From the IMG/VR virus record IMGVR_UViG_3300049812_001592, positions 1 through 37,586 of that record: 37,586 nt of DNA; one strand, written 5' to 3'. Source of the DNA: a virus. A program made the position numbers and the translations under genes. Position 1 is the first letter of the stretch; the number at the start of each line of letters is the position of its first letter. The notes below the pieces were generated by a model. That model saw nothing but the letters and a program-made list of their open reading frames with translations. It was not told the DNA's origin and ran no database searches. Shown here one piece after another: positions 20,160-37,586 of the stretch.

Positions 20160-20425
20160 TACTCATCTAAAATTGATTGTGATTCTGGGTAGTAATTATC
20201 CCAGAATTTACTTCTATACCCCGGCTCCTTGTACCTTAAATCTTTTTGGTTACTAATCTTACGAACAGGATAGTTATATCTAGGAACATAGTGTCTAAGC
20301 CCTCTGTTTATTAAGGCAACAGTGTGGACAGATACTTTAAACATCTTAGCAATCTGTTTAATTTCCAACTCATTCTCCCTCAACTCAATCCGTACTTCTT
20401 CTGCCTGATCATCAGTTAGTTTCAA
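20159..20425 (-). CDS. small helix-turn-helix DNA-binding protein
   Basis: This is an 88-residue protein with a TTG start at 20425; GGAG lies seven bases upstream. A homeodomain-like HTH is visible at about 20-45 (EIKQIAKMFKVSVHTVALI, then NRGLRHYV), a type found as a stand-alone regulator or as the tail of homing nucleases. The C-terminus is polar and aromatic. It overlaps the primase-helicase stop. It is one candidate for a protein binding the repeated DNA sites in this window, but nothing links them directly. Confidence 0.65.
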   Translation of the reverse strand: MKLTDDQAEEVRIELRENELEIKQIAKMFKVSVHTVALINRGLRHYVPRYNYPVRKISNQKDLRYKEPGYRSKFWDNYYPESQSILDE

Positions 20426-22118
20426 AATAATCTCCTACGATTGGGTTATATCTAAGTGATGCCATTCCCATAGCACCGTCCTGTCTAAATCTCTGCTTCT
20501 GAATGTGGATGTCTACCAACTTGGAGTCAGGGTCTGACAGGTCACGGTATATCACCACCCCTGAATCTGACTTGTTCCTCCAGTGTGCGGAGCCTGAGAT
20601 ATCCCACAGGCTAGGCACTGGGTAGCCTCCATCCTTGTCACGGTACATCTTGGCAGGGTGGGCTACGATCCACAGGTGTATTCCGTACCTTCTGGCGAAC
20701 TGTCTCGCCCTCTTCAAGCACATGCCAATGTACTCTGTCTCAGAAAACCCACCTCTCCCACTCTCCAACTCATTCCACGGATCAATCACCAAGCCCCTGA
20801 TCCCATGCCTCCTGACCAATCCCCTCGCTGTATCCAGTATCTTCTCAAGCGTCCACTCTGCATCATCCTCAGGCAGTATCCAGTGGAAGTGTTCCTTCAC
20901 CCAATCCTTGGCGTAGTTCAGTTCTTCCTTGGTCATGCGCCTGTTGAATCCCTGCCTAAACGGAGCGCCTATGTACTTCTCCATGATTCGGGACATATGA
21001 TCCTCCAATGGCTGATTCTCTGGAGAGAATATGGCGAACCTCCAACCATTCTTCTTGGCTATGTTCACCATCATGGAGTCAATCCAGTTGGACTTGCCAC
21101 TGCATGGTATGCCTGTCACAACAGAGAAGCATCCCGGCCTGACTAGGTAGTGCTTATCCAGACATGCCCACCCTGTGGATGTTCCCTTCTCTAATCCGTT
21201 GTCGTACAACTCTCCCAACTTGTCAGACAAATCACTGGCTGTGAACGTACCCGCTATGGGGTATGGCTCCGCATGTTCGATGCACTCAGCCAACACCTTC
21301 TTGCCATGCTTGACCAGTACATCGTTGGCATCCTTGCAGTCTTCGGGCCATGTCACCCTACTGCATACCTCTTTGCCAAGCCTACGCGCCAGTTCCTCTT
21401 GCAGTCTCTGTCCGGGGGCATCGTTGTCTACCGCTATGATGTACGTTCTCCCCTTTTCCACTCCGTTGATGCGTGACTCGTTGAGAAATTCAAACTTAGA
21501 GGAGTAGTTCTTTGACTCAACGGATGGCGCACCATCAGGCACACTGACACACTGCTTCATCCCCGCCTCATACAGAGATAGTTTGTCCATCTCTCCCTCG
21601 ACAAAGATAACAACACCATCCTCATCTGTTATATCGTCAAGACCATACAGTATGCGCTCCGCATTTACCTCAGACCTGAACTCCTTGGAGCCTGACCTAT
21701 ACTTCACGTTAACCAAATCACCGTTGCGGTAGTAGGGAAACGTGAGGGCCATCTTCTCTTCCTCAGACTGAGGCATGTACACCTTCTTCATGCCGATACC
21801 ACAGTCGATTGCTGTCTCTTCCGATATGCCCCTCTTGTTCAGCCACTCAATCGTAGCCTCTGGCAGATCGCTCTTGGGTATAGGCTCTGGCTTTCTGAAC
21901 TCAGGCTTGCGCCAGTGCAAACCAAGGCTGTCATCAGTACCCGATAACAGGCTACCACTCCAACCACAGTGATGGCACAACCAAATCTTCTCATCTGTGT
22001 TGACAGACAAACACTTGGCATTCTTCTTGCGCCTGTCCTTGCTACATTTGGGGCAAGTGGTTGCAATCTGAACACCAGTGCCAGTGAACTTGATACCAAA
22101 ATCAGCATAGTCTTTCAT
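20412..22118 (-). CDS. bifunctional DNA primase-helicase (T7 gp4-like)
   Basis: This is a 568-residue protein. A zinc-binding domain has CPKC (22-25) and CHHC (48-51). The TOPRIM primase core has VEGEMDK (Glu174) and AVDNDAPG (Asp231, Asp233). The RecA-like DnaB/gp4 helicase has Walker A GIPCSGKS (336-343) and Walker B LVIDPWNELE (443-452). All essential motifs are present. It unwinds DNA and makes primers at the phage fork. The start overlaps the initiator-like gene by four bases (ATGA). No DNA polymerase is found nearby, so the polymerase is elsewhere in the genome or from the host. Confidence 0.93.
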   Translation of the reverse strand: MKDYADFGIKFTGTGVQIATTCPKCSKDRRKKNAKCLSVNTDEKIWLCHHCGWSGSLLSGTDDSLGLHWRKPEFRKPEPIPKSDLPEATIEWLNKRGISEETAIDCGIGMKKVYMPQSEEEKMALTFPYYRNGDLVNVKYRSGSKEFRSEVNAERILYGLDDITDEDGVVIFVEGEMDKLSLYEAGMKQCVSVPDGAPSVESKNYSSKFEFLNESRINGVEKGRTYIIAVDNDAPGQRLQEELARRLGKEVCSRVTWPEDCKDANDVLVKHGKKVLAECIEHAEPYPIAGTFTASDLSDKLGELYDNGLEKGTSTGWACLDKHYLVRPGCFSVVTGIPCSGKSNWIDSMMVNIAKKNGWRFAIFSPENQPLEDHMSRIMEKYIGAPFRQGFNRRMTKEELNYAKDWVKEHFHWILPEDDAEWTLEKILDTARGLVRRHGIRGLVIDPWNELESGRGGFSETEYIGMCLKRARQFARRYGIHLWIVAHPAKMYRDKDGGYPVPSLWDISGSAHWRNKSDSGVVIYRDLSDPDSKLVDIHIQKQRFRQDGAMGMASLRYNPIVGDYFETN

Positions 22119-22651
22119 GCTTGGAATCCTTTTCTTCTGGGCTTGTTGTTTCTGAGTATACCGTAGATGTATTGCTTGGGATCAGCGGGTCTTTTCAACA
22201 GCACAATCCCCACCGCCTTGGCTACCTCATTCTCTCCGTTGGCCTTTATCAATTGCCCCAAGATACCCCTTGAATTAGGGCCTGCCAACTGCTCCCATAC
22301 ATCCCAAATACTGTTGTTAGCAATATGTAAAGATTCTATTACAGATTCCGTGTCAACTGACTTGACAGGGGGTGTCAACTGAGATGACACCGTATTTATT
22401 TTATAAATGTTACTTGTCTGGCCCTTCTCCCCTTTCCTGTGTTCAAAAGATATGTGTCCTTTTTCACGTAACCTGTTGATAATTAAGTTAACATTCTGTC
22501 TTGACATACCCGCCCTTTCAGCAAGGTATTTTTGAGAAGGCCAACATTCACCTGTCTCATCATTAGCATTGTCTGATAGAAGGATCAATATCATTTTCTC
22601 AGACGTTGTAATGTCAAGGTCTAGTGCCTTTAGTATTCTTCTTAGGCTCAT
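22115..22651 (-). CDS. winged-HTH replication initiator-like protein
   Basis: This is a 178-residue protein. Residues about 1-86 form a winged helix-turn-helix of the phage replisome-organizer type (MILILLSDNANDETGECWPS, then QKYLAERAGMSRQNVNLII with a wing GHISFEHRKG). Residues 87-105 are a Ser/Thr/Pro-rich linker, and 108-178 a C-terminal domain (WDVWEQLAG, LGQLIKANG, YIYGILRNN). The layout is like lambda O: DNA-binding domain, linker, and partner-binding domain upstream of the helicase gene. The linker-coding DNA carries iteron-like repeats. The role is inferred from fold and position. Confidence 0.75.
   Translation of the reverse strand: MSLRRILKALDLDITTSEKMILILLSDNANDETGECWPSQKYLAERAGMSRQNVNLIINRLREKGHISFEHRKGEKGQTSNIYKINTVSSQLTPPVKSVDTESVIESLHIANNSIWDVWEQLAGPNSRGILGQLIKANGENEVAKAVGIVLLKRPADPKQYIYGILRNNKPRRKGFQA
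22350..22389. repeat. two 18-bp iteron-like repeats inside the initiator gene
   Basis: GTGTCAACTGACTTGACA (22350-22367) and GTGTCAACTGAGATGACA (22372-22389) match at 16 of 18 positions and are exactly 22 bp apart, about two helical turns. Each is itself an inverted pair, TGTCA-N7-TGACA. They lie in the linker-coding part of the wHTH gene. Confidence 0.75.
22350..22415. other. candidate origin of replication
   Basis: Iteron-like repeats at 22350-22389 are followed directly by an AT-rich stretch (about 22391-22415, containing TATTTATTTTATAAATG) that could melt. In lambda the origin has the same layout: iterons plus AT-rich region within the linker part of the initiator gene O. This is inference from arrangement only. 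Confidence 0.5.
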
Positions 22652-22681: not shown

Positions 22682-22710
22682 ATTATACTAAATCTATATG
22701 TTATAATCAA
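22682..22710 (-). promoter_or_regulatory. leftward promoter of replication block
   Basis: On the minus strand TTGATT (22705-22710), a 17-base spacer and TATAAT (22682-22687) form a good sigma70-type promoter. The start point would be about 25 bases before the ATG at 22651. Confidence 0.65.
22698..22707 (+). promoter_or_regulatory. rightward extended -10 of recombination operon
   Basis: ATGTTATAAT (22698-22707) contains TGTTATAAT, an extended -10, and shares TATGTTATAAT with the 19.2-kb box. No -35 is clear. TATAAT ends only six bases before the ATG at 22714, so transcripts would be leaderless or nearly so. It overlaps the leftward promoter. Confidence 0.5.
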
Positions 22711-22713
22711 CCA

Positions 22714-22977
22714 ATGAAAAGTAAAAAGTATATGCAGTGGGTAGCGGAACACTCATGTATACACTGTGGAACTTATCCGGTGCAGGTTCACCATCTCAGA
22801 AGCCAGTCACTAGGAGCAGGGATGGGCAGAAAAGTTCCTGACTATTTTACCATACCAGTTTGTCAGCAGTGTCACTCGGACTGCCACTCTCTGGAACACG
22901 ACAAGGAGACACAGTACAGATGGACGTTGCAGATGATAGGGAGAGCGATGGAGAATGGCATACTAAAGATGTCCTAG
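22714..22977 (+). CDS. HNH-type nuclease (YbcO/DUF968-like)
   Basis: This is an 87-residue protein. It has CIHCG (Cys15, Cys18), VHHLRS (His26, His27), KVPDYFTIPVC (Cys50) and CHSDCH (Cys53, His58), the zinc and catalytic order of small HNH nucleases in the YbcO/DUF968/Ref group found in phage recombination (Nin) regions. The catalytic His is probably in VHH. It is the first gene of the rightward operon, just below the divergent promoter, and may nick recombination intermediates. Confidence 0.75.
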   Translation: MKSKKYMQWVAEHSCIHCGTYPVQVHHLRSQSLGAGMGRKVPDYFTIPVCQQCHSDCHSLEHDKETQYRWTLQMIGRAMENGILKMS

Positions 22978-29430: not shown

Positions 29431-29632
29431 TGGACACCACGCAACCGATGGGGAAGGCAGTGATACCAAAGTAGTTGTCCTCCACATCCTTGGTGTTGGC
29501 AATCTTCAACACCTTTGAGTCTTTAACGATGAGGTATCCGACAGTCCAAAAGGTTTGCGGCTCTATCTCATCTTCTTTTTCCCACCCTGCTGACGCAAGA
29601 ATATCTTGCCATTCTACGCAAACCAATCTCAT
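29396..29632 (-). CDS. small protein downstream of giant gene
   Basis: This is a 78-residue protein starting at an ATG that overlaps the giant gene's stop (ATGA). It begins MRLVCVEWQDILASAGWEKE and has a WTVGYLIVKDSKVLKIANT segment, and looks like a compact alpha/beta domain; similar proteins occur in phages without known function. Its 3' end overlaps the convergent phosphoesterase gene by 35 bases, so transcription of both blocks would collide or share a terminator; no hairpin is visible there. Confidence 0.6.
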   Translation of the reverse strand: MRLVCVEWQDILASAGWEKEDEIEPQTFWTVGYLIVKDSKVLKIANTKDVEDNYFGITAFPIGCVVSITDIPSTVSAE

Positions 29633-32600
29633 AGCGTTCTCTCTATACCAGATGTCTTCCTGTTAAACTCCGCTTTCTCCTCCCTTGCTTCATCAATCCT
29701 TCTCTTCAACTCGTTGACCTTTCGCTTCTTTTGATCTGGCGCGAGACTTCTGTTCTTTCTGGTAGAAGTTATGTCTGCCTTAAATCCTCTTATCTCAGAA
29801 TTGTATCTCCTGTTCTGTGCTGAACGTGCATCAGGAGATATTGCGTAAGGGTTAAGGCCTATAGAAGAACCAAGAAGTTTTCCAAAACTAACCTTAGTGT
29901 CTCCATATCTGTTAGTTCTACCCAAAGCAAAGTCGAACAACTTTCCTTCTATCTCTTTAGGATCAAGCCTGTACATGGCCTCACCTAATGAGGAAACAGA
30001 CACTAGACCATTACGAGTTAACCAAGGAGGTAGCATCATTGAGTTCATGTAACTGATCTTGTCAAACACTCTGTCAGATAATGGATCGTTCTCGTTGACA
30101 ATATCGTAACCACTCCAAGGGTCTTTGTTGGTTGTGATGGCTGTCATCAATTGCCAACCGGGGCCTATGACGCCACCCTCAATCAGTGCTTTTGAGACAT
30201 CCCCCTGTCCAAGTTTAGTTGCCATCTGGGTATACCAAGACCAAGGGAAGAAGTAAGAGATATCAACAGCCTGCCATCTACCTTCTGAATCCTTCCAAGG
30301 CAGGAACAACATCGTGTTGTCCTTTGTAAACTCAGGCAGTAACTCTTCCATCTTATCCCAATCATCCTCCACGAATGGAAAGGAACCGAACAATGCCTGT
30401 GCGCTACCAATCAACATCATGTATGGGATGAACCTATGGTACTTGCTTGGATCATTCAGAACCTTGACCAACTCAGGCAACACCTTAACTTGGAACGTTA
30501 TAAATGGCGCTCCAAGAAAGGATGATCTCAATCCTCTGATAGTAGGGCTAACCTCGCTGTAGTCAAACAAAATCCTGTTCGCTTCCTGAACTGCTATGTC
30601 TTCAATAGTAAGTATTTTTGAATTCTCTTTCGCAAGAATATCGTTTAGTTCTGCCCTCTGAGTATCGTTGTTAAGTTTGTCCATGATAACCGCAACCTTA
30701 CCAAGTATCTCTATGTTCTGGTAAAGGTCACCACCAAACTCTGCCAGTTTGTTCCACATCTTCTGGCCTCCGGTTAGTATTCCCCATGCTCCTTCCTTCT
30801 CCATGTATTGGAACACTATCTCCATCTTCTTTAACTCAGCAGATGTTAGTGTCGTGCCTGATACGCCCTGCTCTTGAGCGAGTTCATAAGCAGTAAACTT
30901 TTTACCTGTCTTTGAGTGAGTAAAGACCATGCCTGAGTCTTCTCCTCTCATCTCTTTGATAGCCGCTCTCAATAATGCAGGTTGTCTATGGAAAGCAACG
31001 CCTCCTATCAACTGCATCAACACTAAGTTAGATACAAAGTTTCTTACTACTGTCGGAGGGTTAAGAGGAACCTTAAGAATCTTGAACGCACTTACCAACT
31101 TGGCATGTTTACCATAAGGAAGTAGCATTCTCTGAAAAAGATTCTGCTCACCTTTCACCATGTCTGCATTGCCTATGATGTCTTCATAAATCTCCCTGCG
31201 AACATACAGCCCTGCCATAGAGCCGTACTTATCAGGTATGTTAGGTATTCTCCTAAACATTTTTAAGTCATAGTTGTCATCATAATACTTAGCAATGCTA
31301 GAGGCATCTCCTTCTTGGTTTGTACCCAACTGATCAAGAGGAACACCAAGGCTGTCATAGAATTCCTTACGAGCCAACTCAAGTTCAGCAGACCTCTCTT
31401 TTAATGCCTCTATTGCTTCAGGTTTCATTGTTGATTTGCCTTGAGCAATTAGATTATTAAATGCAGTTATTTGTCTTTCCAAACTTGCTAGTGTTGTTAG
31501 CCTTTTTCCTTTTGTGCCATCCTTTTTTATAAATGGAATTTCAACCCATTGCATTGGCATTACCCAAGGAACATCCCCTGCTACAGACCTCTCATCCTTG
31601 GGCATATCTTTTATTTGTTTTTTTAAATCTTTTATATCTTGATCAAGTGCAGTTTTTTGCTCATCAGTGGTTGCATTATCTCTGTCAACCATCTTCTGGT
31701 TAAGGTTCTCTTTAAGTTTTTTCAGGGCCTCAGACTCTTCGATAGCAGATCGAACTGATAACTGCTTAAGATAATCTATAACTACAATGTCATGTTGAGA
31801 CATTGTGAGTGCATTGTAGAGTAGATACTTAACATCTTTAATCTCTCCCATCATTTCCCTTACAGACTCATCAAACTCTTTTCTTGGCATAGTCCAAAGT
31901 TTTCCAGTAGTTCTAAACTTACCTCCTATGTCAGTGGAATGGGATAGAATGTTTGTGAGATAAACCCTTGGCAGATATGCTCCCCTAAGTTCTGCAAGTT
32001 GCTCCTTGCTTGCCTCTGGAAACATCTCTCGTAACTCTGCTTCAGTAGCGATTTCTTCTATCTTGTTTTTTAATCCAATGGAAGCCTGTTGTAGTTGTTT
32101 GTCCACCGTAGAGTTTTCTGCAAAGGTAGCGCCTTTAGTTGTAAAGAACTCAAACAGTTCTTGGTTTTGTTCTTCCGTCAGGTTGTCGTATGCCTTGAGG
32201 ATATCTCTACCCAATGACTCAATCTCACCCATCTTACCTGCCAGTAGTGATCTTAGTTTTCTTAAGTCTCTAGCAAATGGTAGATTAGCAAACGGATCAA
32301 AGAACTTCTTTGTTGCTCTCCATGCAGAGCCTGCCTTCTCAGTGTAGCCTGCTCTCTCTGCGGCATCATGCAGTTTCCTTCCTCCTTCTGTTTCAAGGAT
32401 ACGATCAGCCGCGCCCTGCACCAAGGAGTAGTACTCCTCATCGTCAGAGTCAATAGTTTGTTGGTTGTTTCTTTGTGACATGCCACGTGCCGCACCTCTT
32501 GCAAATGCAATCAGTTGTCCGTCAGACACTGGCTTTCCAATGTACATCTGGAATCTTGCGGCTACTCTCTTCAGAGTGTCAAAGATTATTTGCCAAAAAG

Positions 32601-35600
32601 AATTCTTGTATTCAGCATTAGACTCAACAAAATATGCAAAGGCTTCTTCTGAAATATAGTTTTCTCTTGCAACATCATCAGCAAATGTTTTCTGGTTTGC
32701 TGAAATAGTAGCGGCATCGAATGCGTCAGCCCATTCTGGATTGTTTCGTCTGCTCTTTACTTCGTTAAGGATAGAGTTGAAGTCATCTCCGTATACCTGC
32801 TTCATGCCAAGGTGTACACCAATCTCATGCAGGTACAGCCCAGTGATCTCGCTTTCCTTGATGTTGTTGGTTATGAACCAAGTCTTTCCGTTGCGAGTAA
32901 CAGCATGAACACCCATGTTAATCAAGTTAAAGGGAACATCCTGTTGGTTCTGTACTATGATTACCTCGCCACTCTTGATAAGCCTTTCCAAGTTTAGCCT
33001 GCCAACAGTACTGCCAAGCACCTCTTTAAATCTCTTAGGTGTTAGTCCAGTGTTGTACTTGAAGGAGCCTTGCCCATCTGCGGGAATGGGGCGTACTATT
33101 GAGTAGTTCTCAAAGTCAGTCTCAAAGTTATCGTAACTTATGCGTACGCTCATGTTGTTAGGAGTAGACATTCGATCAACCTCAATTGTCATACCCTTAG
33201 AGAATTTGGTTACGTCCTTCTTGCCGTGTACAATTGCTTGAAACTTTAAGTCTGGCGCTTTTCCTCCAGTAAACTGCACGTAAACAACGTTACTTACCTT
33301 TTCTGTTACTTTCCACTTGCCTCCATACTTGTCCTCAAAACTTTGTCCTAAATCCATTCTAACAAAAGGAGTATCACCTGTTATAGGTTTAGCAACTACC
33401 TGTTCAGGGTCTGTAGGAACATCATCTGTAGTTTGTCTTTCTTCTTCAAATGATTCATCAATGAGATCATCCATTAATGCTTCTTCTGTAGTAGGAGCAT
33501 CAGGTTCAGTTACAACTTCAACAGGCGCAATCTTTTTGACAAAATCAAAAGAAACCTTTCGACCATCTGAATATAAGGTTGTTGTCGCACTCCGAACAAT
33601 TTTAAATCCGGGCTGTCTTCTTAAGATTGGGCTGTATAAAAGTTGAATTTTTTTAATGGAAGGCAACCCAAATGAGTTGAGACTATTTAAATCAACCTCA
33701 ATCCTAAATTGTTTTCTAGGACTCTCAGACTTGCGCCTGTCTCTTTCTTGGATTAGCACATCAAAGGCTTCTTTCCCAGACTTTAGTGGAGGCCCTTTGT
33801 AAAATTGTTCGGGAGTAAAGTTTTTAGTAGTTGCAGGTGTAGTTTCAACAGGAGCGGCTTGCTCTTCTCGTTTCTTCCTGTTGGCTTCTTCCATCTCTGC
33901 TACTTTATCTACAACTTCTTGAGCGGCCTTTTGTGTTTCAGTATCATCAGCCAGTTTCTTTGCGGCATCTGGATCAGACAGGACTGCACCATATTTTTCC
34001 GCAATTTCCGGTGTGATCAAGTCATCCCTTGTCGTTACTTCAAAAACAGATTGTGCTTTTTCAATGCTTATGCCTAACTTTTTAGCAATAGAACTGAACG
34101 ATTTTCCACTCGCCCTTAAATCTTTTACCTTTTTGGAAAGTTCTGGTTCAGCAATAGGCATTGTAGTTATGCCTAACTCAGCCTCCTCTTTTCCGGGGCT
34201 GTACTTATAACGAACCTCTACTCCTGAAAGAGGATCAGGGGGAACAGAAACTTTAACATCCTTTTTCCTTAGTATAGTTCTACGAACTTCTCTCTTTAAT
34301 CCTTCGGGAAGTTTGCGTACTTTGAATTCCCCTTCTGTTACTTTGTCTAGGTTGTTTAGGAAAGCGGCGGTTTGGTCAGCAGTAGCACCCTCAAGGTCTT
34401 TTGTGCCATCAACAGAAACACTATATGTATTATTTAACTTTGAGTAATACACTCTTACAATAGTTTGCTCATCTGATACAGCACTTCCAAACACAGGTAC
34501 ACGCTCTACATCTACTGTCTCTTCTTTAAATGGATAGTAAGTAAGCATACTATCTGGGCGACCAATGTCTTCAATAGGAGCGCCCTCTCTTACTTCTATA
34601 GGTTTCTCTGGCCTTACTACCTGAACTCTTTGGTAGTTAAGAACATCAAACCCAGTAAGTTTTCCATCTACCTTTATCCCTACGCTGTTAGCGTTGACAT
34701 AAGAGATAACGCCAGAAACAACAGATCCATCGTACATCTCAAACATTGCTTTATTGCCTATGTTTTCAGATAAAGATTCTGATCTGGCTTTTTGTAAACG
34801 TTCCCTGTCTGTACCAAACATTCCATAACGATGTGCAGTCTCGCCAAACACAGCGTCTACAAATTCATTGTATTTCGGTATGTCTCCCTTCCTGCTAACA
34901 GGAGACAGATTGTAAGAAGCGACTAGTCGAGAGCCTCTCTCTGGCCCTGCTTCTACCAAGGCTTCATAACTTGCCATAGCACCAATAAGTTCAGGCACAA
35001 CTGCTGTTTGAGTAGCCTCTAGTACAGAGTCAGCACTAATCGTAATGATGTTACTGCCGTCAGAAATATTAATAAAGCCCTTTCTACCTTTTCCAAAAAA
35101 AGGCAAAGTGCCGAATTCTTTTATCCCCACCCCTCTTTCAATTCCTTTAGGTATAGCATAAGAACGGAGCGAATGTTGGCTTACCTCAAATGGAAACTTA
35201 AAATCCTTTATAGGCTTAAGACCCTTAGACTTTCTAATCTTGTTTACCCTATACAAAACATTAGGCTTAACAACAGCAGTAACCCTGCCTCCACGTAGTG
35301 ACTGGGCTAGATCAGTAGTAAGAAACTTTTTATTATCGGTTGTGTTTACAACACGCTTGATTGGCCTAACCTTTCCTTCCGTTTCCCTAGCCATTGGCAT
35401 CAGAGCATCTCTAAGGGCTTCTACTTTTGCCTCATGCTCCTGCTTATTGGTAAAGGTAATGTACACTTCGACATCAGAAATAGGAGACAACATTGCAGGA
35501 TCGAACTCTACGTCCTCATCCTTTTTTCTTTTTACTACAGTCACCCCAGTCCTTCTGTCAACAAATACTTTGTCAACTGTTTCTGGATTAGGTATCGTGT

Positions 35601-37586
35601 CTGGAGTTACAACCTCTATAAAGTTAGCCTGTCTTAGTTGTTTGGTAGGCGCTCGTTGCTCTACTCCAATGATGTCAGTCTTAAGAACCAACTGGCCTGC
35701 CACCTTAAGGTAGGCATTACTGAGATCACCCTTGGCAGTGTTCCATTGAGGCACTGTGCCAATGTCTTCCCAAGGATAGAAAACACCTTCCTCTAGCCCT
35801 TTCTCTTTTGCTACTGAAGGGCGAACCTTTACTCTGGTTGTTTCAGGTGTTGGCCTTTCACCAGTTTCGGGGTCTAGAGTATCTATTTGTACGTCATCCC
35901 TCTCTGTTTCAGGTTTTTTAATAAACCTGACTTTACCCTTTTGCCTTCTGTCTAATCTGCCAGTTATAGCCCTTTTAACTGCGGCCCTTATTTTGGTTAC
36001 TTCAGCGTCCGTTTTTCCAAATACTTCATAAAGAGTCTCATCTGTCTTGTAAGTCTTTTTTACATAGACATCATCTCTAAACTGCTGTTCAGTTATTCTT
36101 GCAATTTCACCTGCTTCTTCTGCTTTTCTTTCTGCTTCTTCAGGAGTTTTAGCAGGGCCTGCTTCATCAATTCCCTCTTCAAGATCAGTGGATTGCCTAT
36201 CCGCTTCTCCTTTAGCAACCAGTTTGTTTACATCGACATTCTGTAAATCTTTTGTTGCGGCTCTTTCTTCTTCTGCGCTTTTTGTTGCGGAAGGTAATTC
36301 GTTTTTGCGAATGTAAACCGTAAACGAATTGTCTATCCATTCTTCAACAGCCTCCATGCTACTTTTAGATAACAGGTTAAGGTTGTCGCCAACAGCAGGA
36401 AATGCTGTCTGGATTTTTGCTTCTCGTTTAGCAAATGGCCTGTACCTTTTCTCTCCGGTAGCCTCAAGAGCCTGCCTTGTTATACTAACCCTAGTAATAG
36501 CATCTTCAATTTCTTCTCTAAATGCTATATCATTTTCTAGCCTATCGTAGAATTCAGAAATTCTTTGAAGTGTCTCTTGCTTTCTTCCTTCGTCAGTGTA
36601 TTTCTGTAAATCGTCTACTGTTATTGTTTCGGCAAGTCGTTCCCTGTCCTTCTTTGGAAGACTGGCTAAATCTGCTTCGGTTAACTCAGTTGAAAGATCA
36701 TCGCCTGCTTCTTCAACTAAGGCCTCTATCTCTGTTACTGGCTCACCAAAAAATTTAGGATATTTCCAAGCGCCTTGCTGACGTAAAACTAGCCTAACGT
36801 TTTCTTCTGTAGGAGGTATCGTCGCCGTTCCTTCCTCATTCGTAGAAAGATTTCTTAGTTTGTAAGTAACGTATATCGGAGAATTTACAGTGAACTGCTT
36901 TCCTTTTAAGTTCTTTGGAACTTTAGCAGTAGGCTTTTCCAGTAGTAAATATATGGTATTGTCTGGGTAGTACCACTTACCAGTTTCTGGATTTCTTCGG
37001 TAGAACCTTACCTGATCCCCTTTTCCTACCTCAAGAAGCCCTTTCTCAGACATAGCCTGCTCAAATGAAATGCCTACAACTTCCCTTTGTTGCTCTTCTC
37101 GTTCTCTTTTTTGTACAACATCAACAGGCCTGCTTTCATATTTTTCAGCAAGAAACTTCATTCCTCCCTCGCCAAAAGCGCGGTCAATTACCTTGCCAGT
37201 TTTTTTATCAGTAATTTCCCAGAAAGATTTTTTAAGGCCATCCTCTTTTTTTAGGATATGATTTTCTGTTTCATATATATATGTAAAGTCGTAAGGCCCT
37301 GCCTTTGTCTTTTTAATTGTTCTTGTTAAATCTGTGTCTCCTTCAAAAGCAGGCTCCTTCCTAGCAGTTTTGTTTATAGCAGGAGTTTCCCCAGTAACAT
37401 TCCAACCAAGTGCAGTCATCTTGGTTCTGGCAGTCTGTTTTCCTTTAGGCCCATACTCAAGATCAGATAAAATATCTTGAGTTGTTTCTGTTGGCACTCT
37501 CCTAACACCTGTTTGCCCTCTCTCAACAACAGGTGGCCCTGTAAGTGGTTCACTTCTATCTACAGGAGCGTCAGGAGCAGGAAGCC
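29629..37586 (-). CDS. giant polyvalent-type phage protein, 5' end outside window
   Basis: The frame is open from its stop at 29629 to the right edge (over 2,650 codons). The GTG at 37497 is only the first start inside a reading frame that continues upstream with Pro-rich codons, so the true start is outside. The N-terminal 1,300 residues are charged modules with long Glu/Lys/Arg-rich linkers. A small HTH-like stretch (GKSFSSIAKKLGISIEKAQS) lies near 34.05-34.11 kb, and a zincin-like LHEIGVHLG (HExxxH) at 32812-32829. The C-terminal third is helical with hydrophobic segments (NPPTVVRNFVSNLVLMQLIG, IPYMMLIGSAQALFG). Such proteins (large polyvalent / PLxRFG type) are thought to be packaged and injected with DNA. 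Confidence 0.78.
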   Translation of the reverse strand, partial: LPAPDAPVDRSEPLTGPPVVERGQTGVRRVPTETTQDILSDLEYGPKGKQTARTKMTALGWNVTGETPAINKTARKEPAFEGDTDLTRTIKKTKAGPYDFTYIYETENHILKKEDGLKKSFWEITDKKTGKVIDRAFGEGGMKFLAEKYESRPVDVVQKREREEQQREVVGISFEQAMSEKGLLEVGKGDQVRFYRRNPETGKWYYPDNTIYLLLEKPTAKVPKNLKGKQFTVNSPIYVTYKLRNLSTNEEGTATIPPTEENVRLVLRQQGAWKYPKFFGEPVTEIEALVEEAGDDLSTELTEADLASLPKKDRERLAETITVDDLQKYTDEGRKQETLQRISEFYDRLENDIAFREEIEDAITRVSITRQALEATGEKRYRPFAKREAKIQTAFPAVGDNLNLLSKSSMEAVEEWIDNSFTVYIRKNELPSATKSAEEERAATKDLQNVDVNKLVAKGEADRQSTDLEEGIDEAGPAKTPEEAERKAEEAGEIARITEQQFRDDVYVKKTYKTDETLYEVFGKTDAEVTKIRAAVKRAITGRLDRRQKGKVRFIKKPETERDDVQIDTLDPETGERPTPETTRVKVRPSVAKEKGLEEGVFYPWEDIGTVPQWNTAKGDLSNAYLKVAGQLVLKTDIIGVEQRAPTKQLRQANFIEVVTPDTIPNPETVDKVFVDRRTGVTVVKRKKDEDVEFDPAMLSPISDVEVYITFTNKQEHEAKVEALRDALMPMARETEGKVRPIKRVVNTTDNKKFLTTDLAQSLRGGRVTAVVKPNVLYRVNKIRKSKGLKPIKDFKFPFEVSQHSLRSYAIPKGIERGVGIKEFGTLPFFGKGRKGFINISDGSNIITISADSVLEATQTAVVPELIGAMASYEALVEAGPERGSRLVASYNLSPVSRKGDIPKYNEFVDAVFGETAHRYGMFGTDRERLQKARSESLSENIGNKAMFEMYDGSVVSGVISYVNANSVGIKVDGKLTGFDVLNYQRVQVVRPEKPIEVREGAPIEDIGRPDSMLTYYPFKEETVDVERVPVFGSAVSDEQTIVRVYYSKLNNTYSVSVDGTKDLEGATADQTAAFLNNLDKVTEGEFKVRKLPEGLKREVRRTILRKKDVKVSVPPDPLSGVEVRYKYSPGKEEAELGITTMPIAEPELSKKVKDLRASGKSFSSIAKKLGISIEKAQSVFEVTTRDDLITPEIAEKYGAVLSDPDAAKKLADDTETQKAAQEVVDKVAEMEEANRKKREEQAAPVETTPATTKNFTPEQFYKGPPLKSGKEAFDVLIQERDRRKSESPRKQFRIEVDLNSLNSFGLPSIKKIQLLYSPILRRQPGFKIVRSATTTLYSDGRKVSFDFVKKIAPVEVVTEPDAPTTEEALMDDLIDESFEEERQTTDDVPTDPEQVVAKPITGDTPFVRMDLGQSFEDKYGGKWKVTEKVSNVVYVQFTGGKAPDLKFQAIVHGKKDVTKFSKGMTIEVDRMSTPNNMSVRISYDNFETDFENYSIVRPIPADGQGSFKYNTGLTPKRFKEVLGSTVGRLNLERLIKSGEVIIVQNQQDVPFNLINMGVHAVTRNGKTWFITNNIKESEITGLYLHEIGVHLGMKQVYGDDFNSILNEVKSRRNNPEWADAFDAATISANQKTFADDVARENYISEEAFAYFVESNAEYKNSFWQIIFDTLKRVAARFQMYIGKPVSDGQLIAFARGAARGMSQRNNQQTIDSDDEEYYSLVQGAADRILETEGGRKLHDAAERAGYTEKAGSAWRATKKFFDPFANLPFARDLRKLRSLLAGKMGEIESLGRDILKAYDNLTEEQNQELFEFFTTKGATFAENSTVDKQLQQASIGLKNKIEEIATEAELREMFPEASKEQLAELRGAYLPRVYLTNILSHSTDIGGKFRTTGKLWTMPRKEFDESVREMMGEIKDVKYLLYNALTMSQHDIVVIDYLKQLSVRSAIEESEALKKLKENLNQKMVDRDNATTDEQKTALDQDIKDLKKQIKDMPKDERSVAGDVPWVMPMQWVEIPFIKKDGTKGKRLTTLASLERQITAFNNLIAQGKSTMKPEAIEALKERSAELELARKEFYDSLGVPLDQLGTNQEGDASSIAKYYDDNYDLKMFRRIPNIPDKYGSMAGLYVRREIYEDIIGNADMVKGEQNLFQRMLLPYGKHAKLVSAFKILKVPLNPPTVVRNFVSNLVLMQLIGGVAFHRQPALLRAAIKEMRGEDSGMVFTHSKTGKKFTAYELAQEQGVSGTTLTSAELKKMEIVFQYMEKEGAWGILTGGQKMWNKLAEFGGDLYQNIEILGKVAVIMDKLNNDTQRAELNDILAKENSKILTIEDIAVQEANRILFDYSEVSPTIRGLRSSFLGAPFITFQVKVLPELVKVLNDPSKYHRFIPYMMLIGSAQALFGSFPFVEDDWDKMEELLPEFTKDNTMLFLPWKDSEGRWQAVDISYFFPWSWYTQMATKLGQGDVSKALIEGGVIGPGWQLMTAITTNKDPWSGYDIVNENDPLSDRVFDKISYMNSMMLPPWLTRNGLVSVSSLGEAMYRLDPKEIEGKLFDFALGRTNRYGDTKVSFGKLLGSSIGLNPYAISPDARSAQNRRYNSEIRGFKADITSTRKNRSLAPDQKKRKVNELKRRIDEAREEKAEFNRKTSGIERTL

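Follow-up and report, generated by a model that had tools for sequence, protein, structure and literature searches.

Positions 22308-22389 of the linear virus record IMGVR_UViG_3300049812_001592 (37,586 nt, possibly incomplete; the whole record is referred to as the window) are best explained, with a probability of about 85%, as a replication origin within the gene of its own initiator, where the encoded protein would bind, an AT-rich element would open, the phage's primase-helicase would be recruited and replication would fire. The window derives from an uncultured virus of bacteria, probably marine judging by the kind of phage. We propose the following course of events. Dimers of the 178-aa initiator would bind two 17-bp dyads through the recognition helix SRQNVNLIINRL, and the dyads, two turns apart, would lie on the same DNA face. 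Strain exerted on the DNA by the resulting nucleoprotein complex would open the neighbouring AT-rich element with its GAAYC repeats (22311-22350), and the C-terminal domain of the protein would then recruit to the opened strand the phage's own primase-helicase, the product of the next gene. Transcription from a promoter at 22682-22710 would cross the site and may aid opening, as pR does in lambda.

The initiator gene (22115-22651, minus strand) encodes a winged helix-turn-helix (wHTH) domain of the HTH_36/DnaD_N-like type, a disordered linker and a helical C-terminal domain. The 178-aa protein matched HTH_36 (1.1e-13) and DnaD_N (2.8e-9) in Pfam and many replication-initiation/O-like PHROGs (best E 5e-20), and its wHTH together with these PHROG matches places it among the HTH_36/PHROG O-like phage initiators. 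PF04492 (Phage_rep_O, the lambda O family), which lambda O itself matched at 5.7e-36, and RepA_N PF06970 were both absent from its Pfam matches at E<=1. In an AlphaFold model based on 16 sequences (mean pLDDT 78.5), the wHTH occupied residues 3-85 (22397-22645, minus strand) and the helical C-terminal domain residues 115-167 (22151-22309, minus strand), with pLDDT below 50 at residues 89-95 and 101-110; the top PDB fold match of the model was DnaD (E=1.4e-3), which is weak taken alone. The dyads lie within codons 88-101 and the AT-rich element within codons 101-115, and the low-confidence stretch of the model coincides with the linker holding the array. The model thus bears out the location of the array between the wHTH and the C-terminal domain given in a preliminary description of this DNA. 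The helicase gene expected next to the initiator is indeed present; it encodes a 568-aa primase-helicase with TOPRIM and DnaB_C domains (20412-22118, minus strand) and overlaps the initiator gene by ATGA. In phages with primase-helicases 58-60% identical to this one (L038-L065, L067, L072, L073, L087 and L094), no wHTH ORF was found directly upstream within the upstream DNA covered. The TGTCATGYYTKATGACA site that occurs in loci, such as L040, whose primase-helicases are about 59% identical was rejected as unrelated, being in an apparent coding stretch far from initiators.

The two 18-bp copies, GTGTCAACTGACTTGACA (22350-22367) and GTGTCAACTGAGATGACA (22372-22389), are identical at 16 of 18 positions, and each contains a perfect TGTCA-N7-TGACA dyad; the inverted repeats and their 22-bp pitch, measured start to start, are present as claimed previously. 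Read in the gene sense on the minus strand, iteron 1 (TGTCATCTCAGTTGACA, 22373-22389) is followed 22 bp later and in another reading frame by iteron 2 (TGTCAAGTCAGTTGACA, 22351-22367), giving the order TGTCATCTCAGTTGACA-CCCCC-TGTCAAGTCAGTTGACA. When any pair of 5-N7-5 dyads at a pitch of 20-24 bp was scored out of 20, the pair at 22351-22389 (20/20) was the sole array in the 37.6-kb window scoring at least 19, compared with a mean of 0.01 arrays of such score in Markov-resampled (shuffled) windows. The same scan applied to lambda O as a positive control recovered the annotated iterons, which are followed on the same side by the least stable 40-mer. DnaA boxes numbered three in the whole window, none of them close to the array. 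GC skew in the window tracks gene direction and carries no information on origin position.

A repetitive Ser/Thr/Val linker is extremely improbable as the cause of the repeats. Linkers are compositionally biased, and peptide repeats occur in those of L020-L024 and L166; however, a pitch of 22 bp is not divisible by 3, so that the two copies here lie in different frames and encode different peptides (VSSQLT and VKSVDT), and the needs of the protein cannot explain both. Furthermore, only 1 of 1000 codon permutations that kept the protein and its codon usage equalled the array score anywhere in the initiator gene, and the dyad arms are kept in relatives while amino acids vary. An amino-acid repeat as the cause of the dyads was thus ruled out by the frame, codon-permutation and synonymous tests.

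The comparison of relatives supports well the reading of the linker as a putative origin. The array was kept in relatives with 87-89% amino acid identity, either with both copies intact or with one of them perfect and the other imperfect. In L011, L015 and L016, one copy was perfect and the other had an altered arm, the first dyad being degenerate in L011. At 54-60% identity, the central bases and the amino acids differed and the array was still present: L013 and L014 (60%) had an additional 30 nt, with three copies at a 21-22-bp pitch, one perfect and two imperfect, and L154-L158 and L161 (54-56%) carried two imperfect copies at a 23-bp pitch, the array of L161 being no better than chance (110 of 1000 codon permutations). 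In an alignment of ten sequences, synonymous differences fell to 0.12-0.47 of expectation over codons 88-110, compared with about 0.8-1.6 over most of the rest. This synonymous constraint, the differing frames and the third copy in L013 indicate that the repeats are conserved more than the amino-acid sequence requires, and lend the candidate origin of the preliminary description the support that it called for.

The strong purifying selection on the in-gene array also bears on the possibility of an origin elsewhere in the genome, with the array serving as an accessory binding site or persisting as an ancestral one. In favour of this, the record is a linear, possibly incomplete fragment, and phage SPP1 carries a second origin at a distance from the initiator gene (PMC6316719); against it, the 37.6 kb contain no other dyad array scoring at least 19, and we consider such a location very unlikely. 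The same alignment showed a second synonymous dip (0.32-0.68) at codons 49-69, over the recognition helix. A match to the IHF consensus, TATCAACAGGTTA (22469-22481, minus strand), precedes the array by about 80 bp; its 5' flank, up to 22495, is AT-rich and under synonymous constraint. The consensus was perfect in seven of the ten aligned sequences and had one mismatch in the other three, and the window has two perfect matches; the site is nevertheless only a candidate because the protein is also conserved there.

On the C-terminal side, as in lambda-type origins, the array is adjoined by an element that is AT-rich by sequence. This candidate DNA-unwinding element (22311-22350, minus strand) is 68% AT, and no other 40-mer of the initiator gene is less stable than 22308-22347. 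The 40 bp on the C-domain side were 60-70% AT in nine of nine close-family members, the window included, and were mostly among the least stable 40-mers. Likewise, in 51 distinct arrays found by pattern, the following 40 bp averaged 58.6% AT versus 44.9% for the ORF and were richer in 45 of 51 cases (P=1.6e-7), while the preceding 40 bp averaged only 48.1%. A conserved putative unwinding element is thus located on the C-domain side of the array, with the polarity of lambda, and is predicted to open. The preliminary description had assigned this role to an AT-rich tract after the array at 22390-22412. The tract exists, but it is not conserved as a functional part: it lies before the array in the gene sense, and the 40 bp there are only 42-60% AT in relatives, so that it was rejected as the unwinding element.

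The candidate unwinding element contains a GAAYC repeat. The first GAATC (22344-22348, minus strand) starts 2 nt past the end of iteron 2 and is invariant across the 10 close-family genes compared; the second (22332-22336, minus strand), 12 bp from the first, is GAACC in L013, L155 and L156. In many relatives, the first GAAYC likewise follows the last dyad by 1-3 nt and is succeeded by one or two more. The motif is read in differing frames (E-P, R-T, N-R-T and K-N-H), which argues for selection on DNA. Over 26 genes, which are not independent, 42 copies were found, compared with a codon-permutation mean of 20.9 and a maximum of 32 in 2000 permutations, this test rarely being significant for single genes and only so for the sum. 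The window thus carries a linker dyad array followed by a GAAYC repeat, a combination that we propose here as a feature of the HTH_36/PHROG O-like phage initiators and that is not a published definition of them.

A 38-bp GAACC box was detected in 123 phage records (108 at >=80% coverage), mostly in replication genes among the matches listed, and in 16 records of a plasmid collection (14 at >=80% coverage). Measured against Vibrio phage 381E49-1, the box was 92-100% identical in the mEp460, ST64B, Ayreon, Stenotrophomonas, Klebsiella, Vibrio and Microbulbifer copies and 87-89% identical in ZF40 and SI8, while wHTH DNA was 55-76% and C-domain DNA 17-42% identical to the same reference. It abuts the array in the lambdoid and Vibrio relatives and exceeds every other compared segment of the gene in DNA conservation. 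In several gammaproteobacterial phages, the box is 92-100% identical where the wHTH DNA is only 55-64% identical, pointing to an origin part that some common factor needs to recognise or melt. The box is, however, not universal among array-bearing initiators: it is absent from the array-bearing genes of L108, L122, L098, L099, L133 and lambda, and of the 51 arrays found by pattern, only 7 had a GAAYC at an offset of 0-4. O-like initiator genes of the gammaproteobacterial phages L178-L188, L134 and L136-L138 contain the 38-bp box. In the linker of L162, the GAACC repeats are followed by TTATCCACA, a match to the DnaA box.

The initiator gene is preceded by a sigma70-like promoter, TTGATT-17-TATAAT (22682-22710, minus strand), the TATAAT of which is retained in L006 and altered in other relatives. 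The dyads might accordingly be taken for an operator through which the wHTH protein acts mainly as an autoregulator, blocking its own gene and that of the primase-helicase from within the coding region. Binding of inverted repeats by a wHTH dimer is the usual design of a repressor, there is a promoter upstream, and autoregulation could coexist with origin function. The array, however, does not overlap the promoter but lies about 290 bp downstream of it; an operator needs neither the conserved adjoining AT-rich GAAYC element nor a spacing near two turns that is kept despite changes in copy number, and the protein family is annotated with replication initiation. A mainly regulatory role is thus unlikely. 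An HNH-endonuclease-like gene (PHROG; 22714-22977, plus strand) points away from the initiator gene, and its transcription in that direction implies divergent promoters beside the candidate origin.

Origins inside initiator genes are established for lambda and the Stx phages (PMC7466680, PMC5043065). In SPP1, oriL lies in gene 38, the gene of the origin-binding protein, which holds repeats and an AT-rich unwinding element (PMC6316719), and in plasmid pSK41 the origin repeats lie inside rep, the linker being dispensable as protein (PMC5703833). The window therefore adds a member to a kind of origin that is already known. The resemblance to the lambda origin noted previously extends to 5-N7-5 iterons, a pitch of about 20-24 bp, an array in the linker and a helicase-system gene next to the initiator. 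As in gene O of lambda and the Stx phages, dyad iterons (TCCCT-N7-AGGGA in lambda) are spaced by 20-24 bp in the initiator linker, and, as in lambda, the AT-rich element is on the C-terminal side and a gene of the helicase system follows. The initiator of the window, however, belongs to HTH_36 instead of PF04492; there are two iterons versus four in lambda, the GAAYC repeat takes the place of the A-rich tract of lambda, and the next gene encodes a TOPRIM/DnaB primase-helicase, not a loader like P. Two iterons with an AT-rich region form the minimal unwinding unit of lambda, as Dodson (1986) is quoted in PMC7466680.

Among the other systems, the RepA_N plasmid pSK41 shares with the window a DnaD-like wHTH and origin repeats within the initiator gene, though the window lacks PF06970 and pSK41 has antisense-RNA copy control and the lifestyle of a plasmid. 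The Rep protein of pPR9 has a PF13730 N-domain like that of a phage replication protein, and this N-domain and the origin have been swapped as one module (PMC5703833). The pairing of a phage-type PF13730 N-domain with an origin resembles the window, whereas pPR9 is a staphylococcal plasmid with a C-terminal domain of the pSK41 type. In SPP1 oriL, the initiator gene also carries repeats and an AT-rich unwinding element; unlike the window, SPP1 has a separate loader (gp39) and helicase (gp40) and a second origin, oriR. The O-like initiators of ST64B, mEp460, ZF40 and Vibrio phages show an HTH_36-like wHTH, linker dyads and a GAACC box 1-3 nt past the array, as in the window, but use other half-sites (TATGG, GTGCA, TGTGC and GTGAC) and have unrelated C-domains and partners.

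DNA-only scans with half-sites picked beforehand found paired dyads at 35 (TGTCA), 45 (TGTGA), 20 (TGTAG) and 76 (TGTCG) loci in viral_contigs, compared with two loci for the mirror control ACTGT. One of these control loci, L133, is itself in the linker of an apparent wHTH initiator to which Pfam assigns no family. By a seed HMM, the array lay in the linker directly after a wHTH at 101 of 176 loci (20, 20, 2 and 59 for TGTCA, TGTGA, TGTAG and TGTCG, respectively), about 11 of the TGTCA loci being the window's own family. The other array loci include L189 and L291, which encode Phage_rep_O proteins of the lambda O family. The scan of genome_contigs yielded one locus, which was irrelevant. A dyad array is not by itself diagnostic, because 17 of the 20 TGTAG loci and some others showed no wHTH gene by HMM.

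Half-sites covary with the recognition helix. The helix motif of the window is SRQ, and its third residue, Q52, was compared with the fourth base of the half-site. In Fisher tests on representatives that still share ancestry, E was present in 8 of 11 TGTGA representatives versus 0 of 26 others (P=4e-6), Q in 13 of 24 TGTC representatives versus 0 of 13 others (P=9e-4), and V in both TGTAG representatives versus 0 of 35 others (P=0.0015). Within the window's clade (99% SH-aLRT), L162 (TRE, TGTGA) and L018 (HRV, TGTAG) changed residue and base together. The tree, built with the third helix residue masked and poorly resolved, requires 15 half-site changes; its supported branches give two to three independent pairs, too few for significance, with the residue as predicted in most and opposite in none. 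This covariation indirectly suggests that the initiator binds the repeats in its own gene.

We lean slightly towards the view that phage initiators of a large, scattered class (HTH_36 and some Phage_rep_O) share a portable origin design together with a helix/half-site code. The design would consist of 17-bp dyads at a pitch of about two turns in linker codons, with an AT-rich tandem repeat, GAAYC in many, on the C-terminal side. The code, if true, would relate a single helix residue to the fourth base (E to TGTG, Q to TGTC and V to TGTA), and would allow both the origin and its specificity to be read straight from the genomes of uncultured phages, most of which have no mapped origin. The covariation would thus provide a testable code for initiator specificity that shifts together with the origin in the same gene. 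A partial literature search found no description of the GAACC box or of the helix/half-site relation, and the matches listed for the box sequence were unrelated.

Several minor observations were also made. An ORF of 2622 aa in the window (29629-37497, minus strand) had PHROG matches of E=0.057 at best. Paired TGTAG-N7-CTACA dyads, in some cases more than two copies, occur outside detectable wHTH genes in L234, L237, L240, L246 and L250. In L114, L126 and L130, TGTCA dyad arrays occupy the end of a helicase-like gene, and a few hundred bp separate them from an HTH_36-like gene; this arrangement suggests a candidate origin beside, and not inside, the initiator gene.
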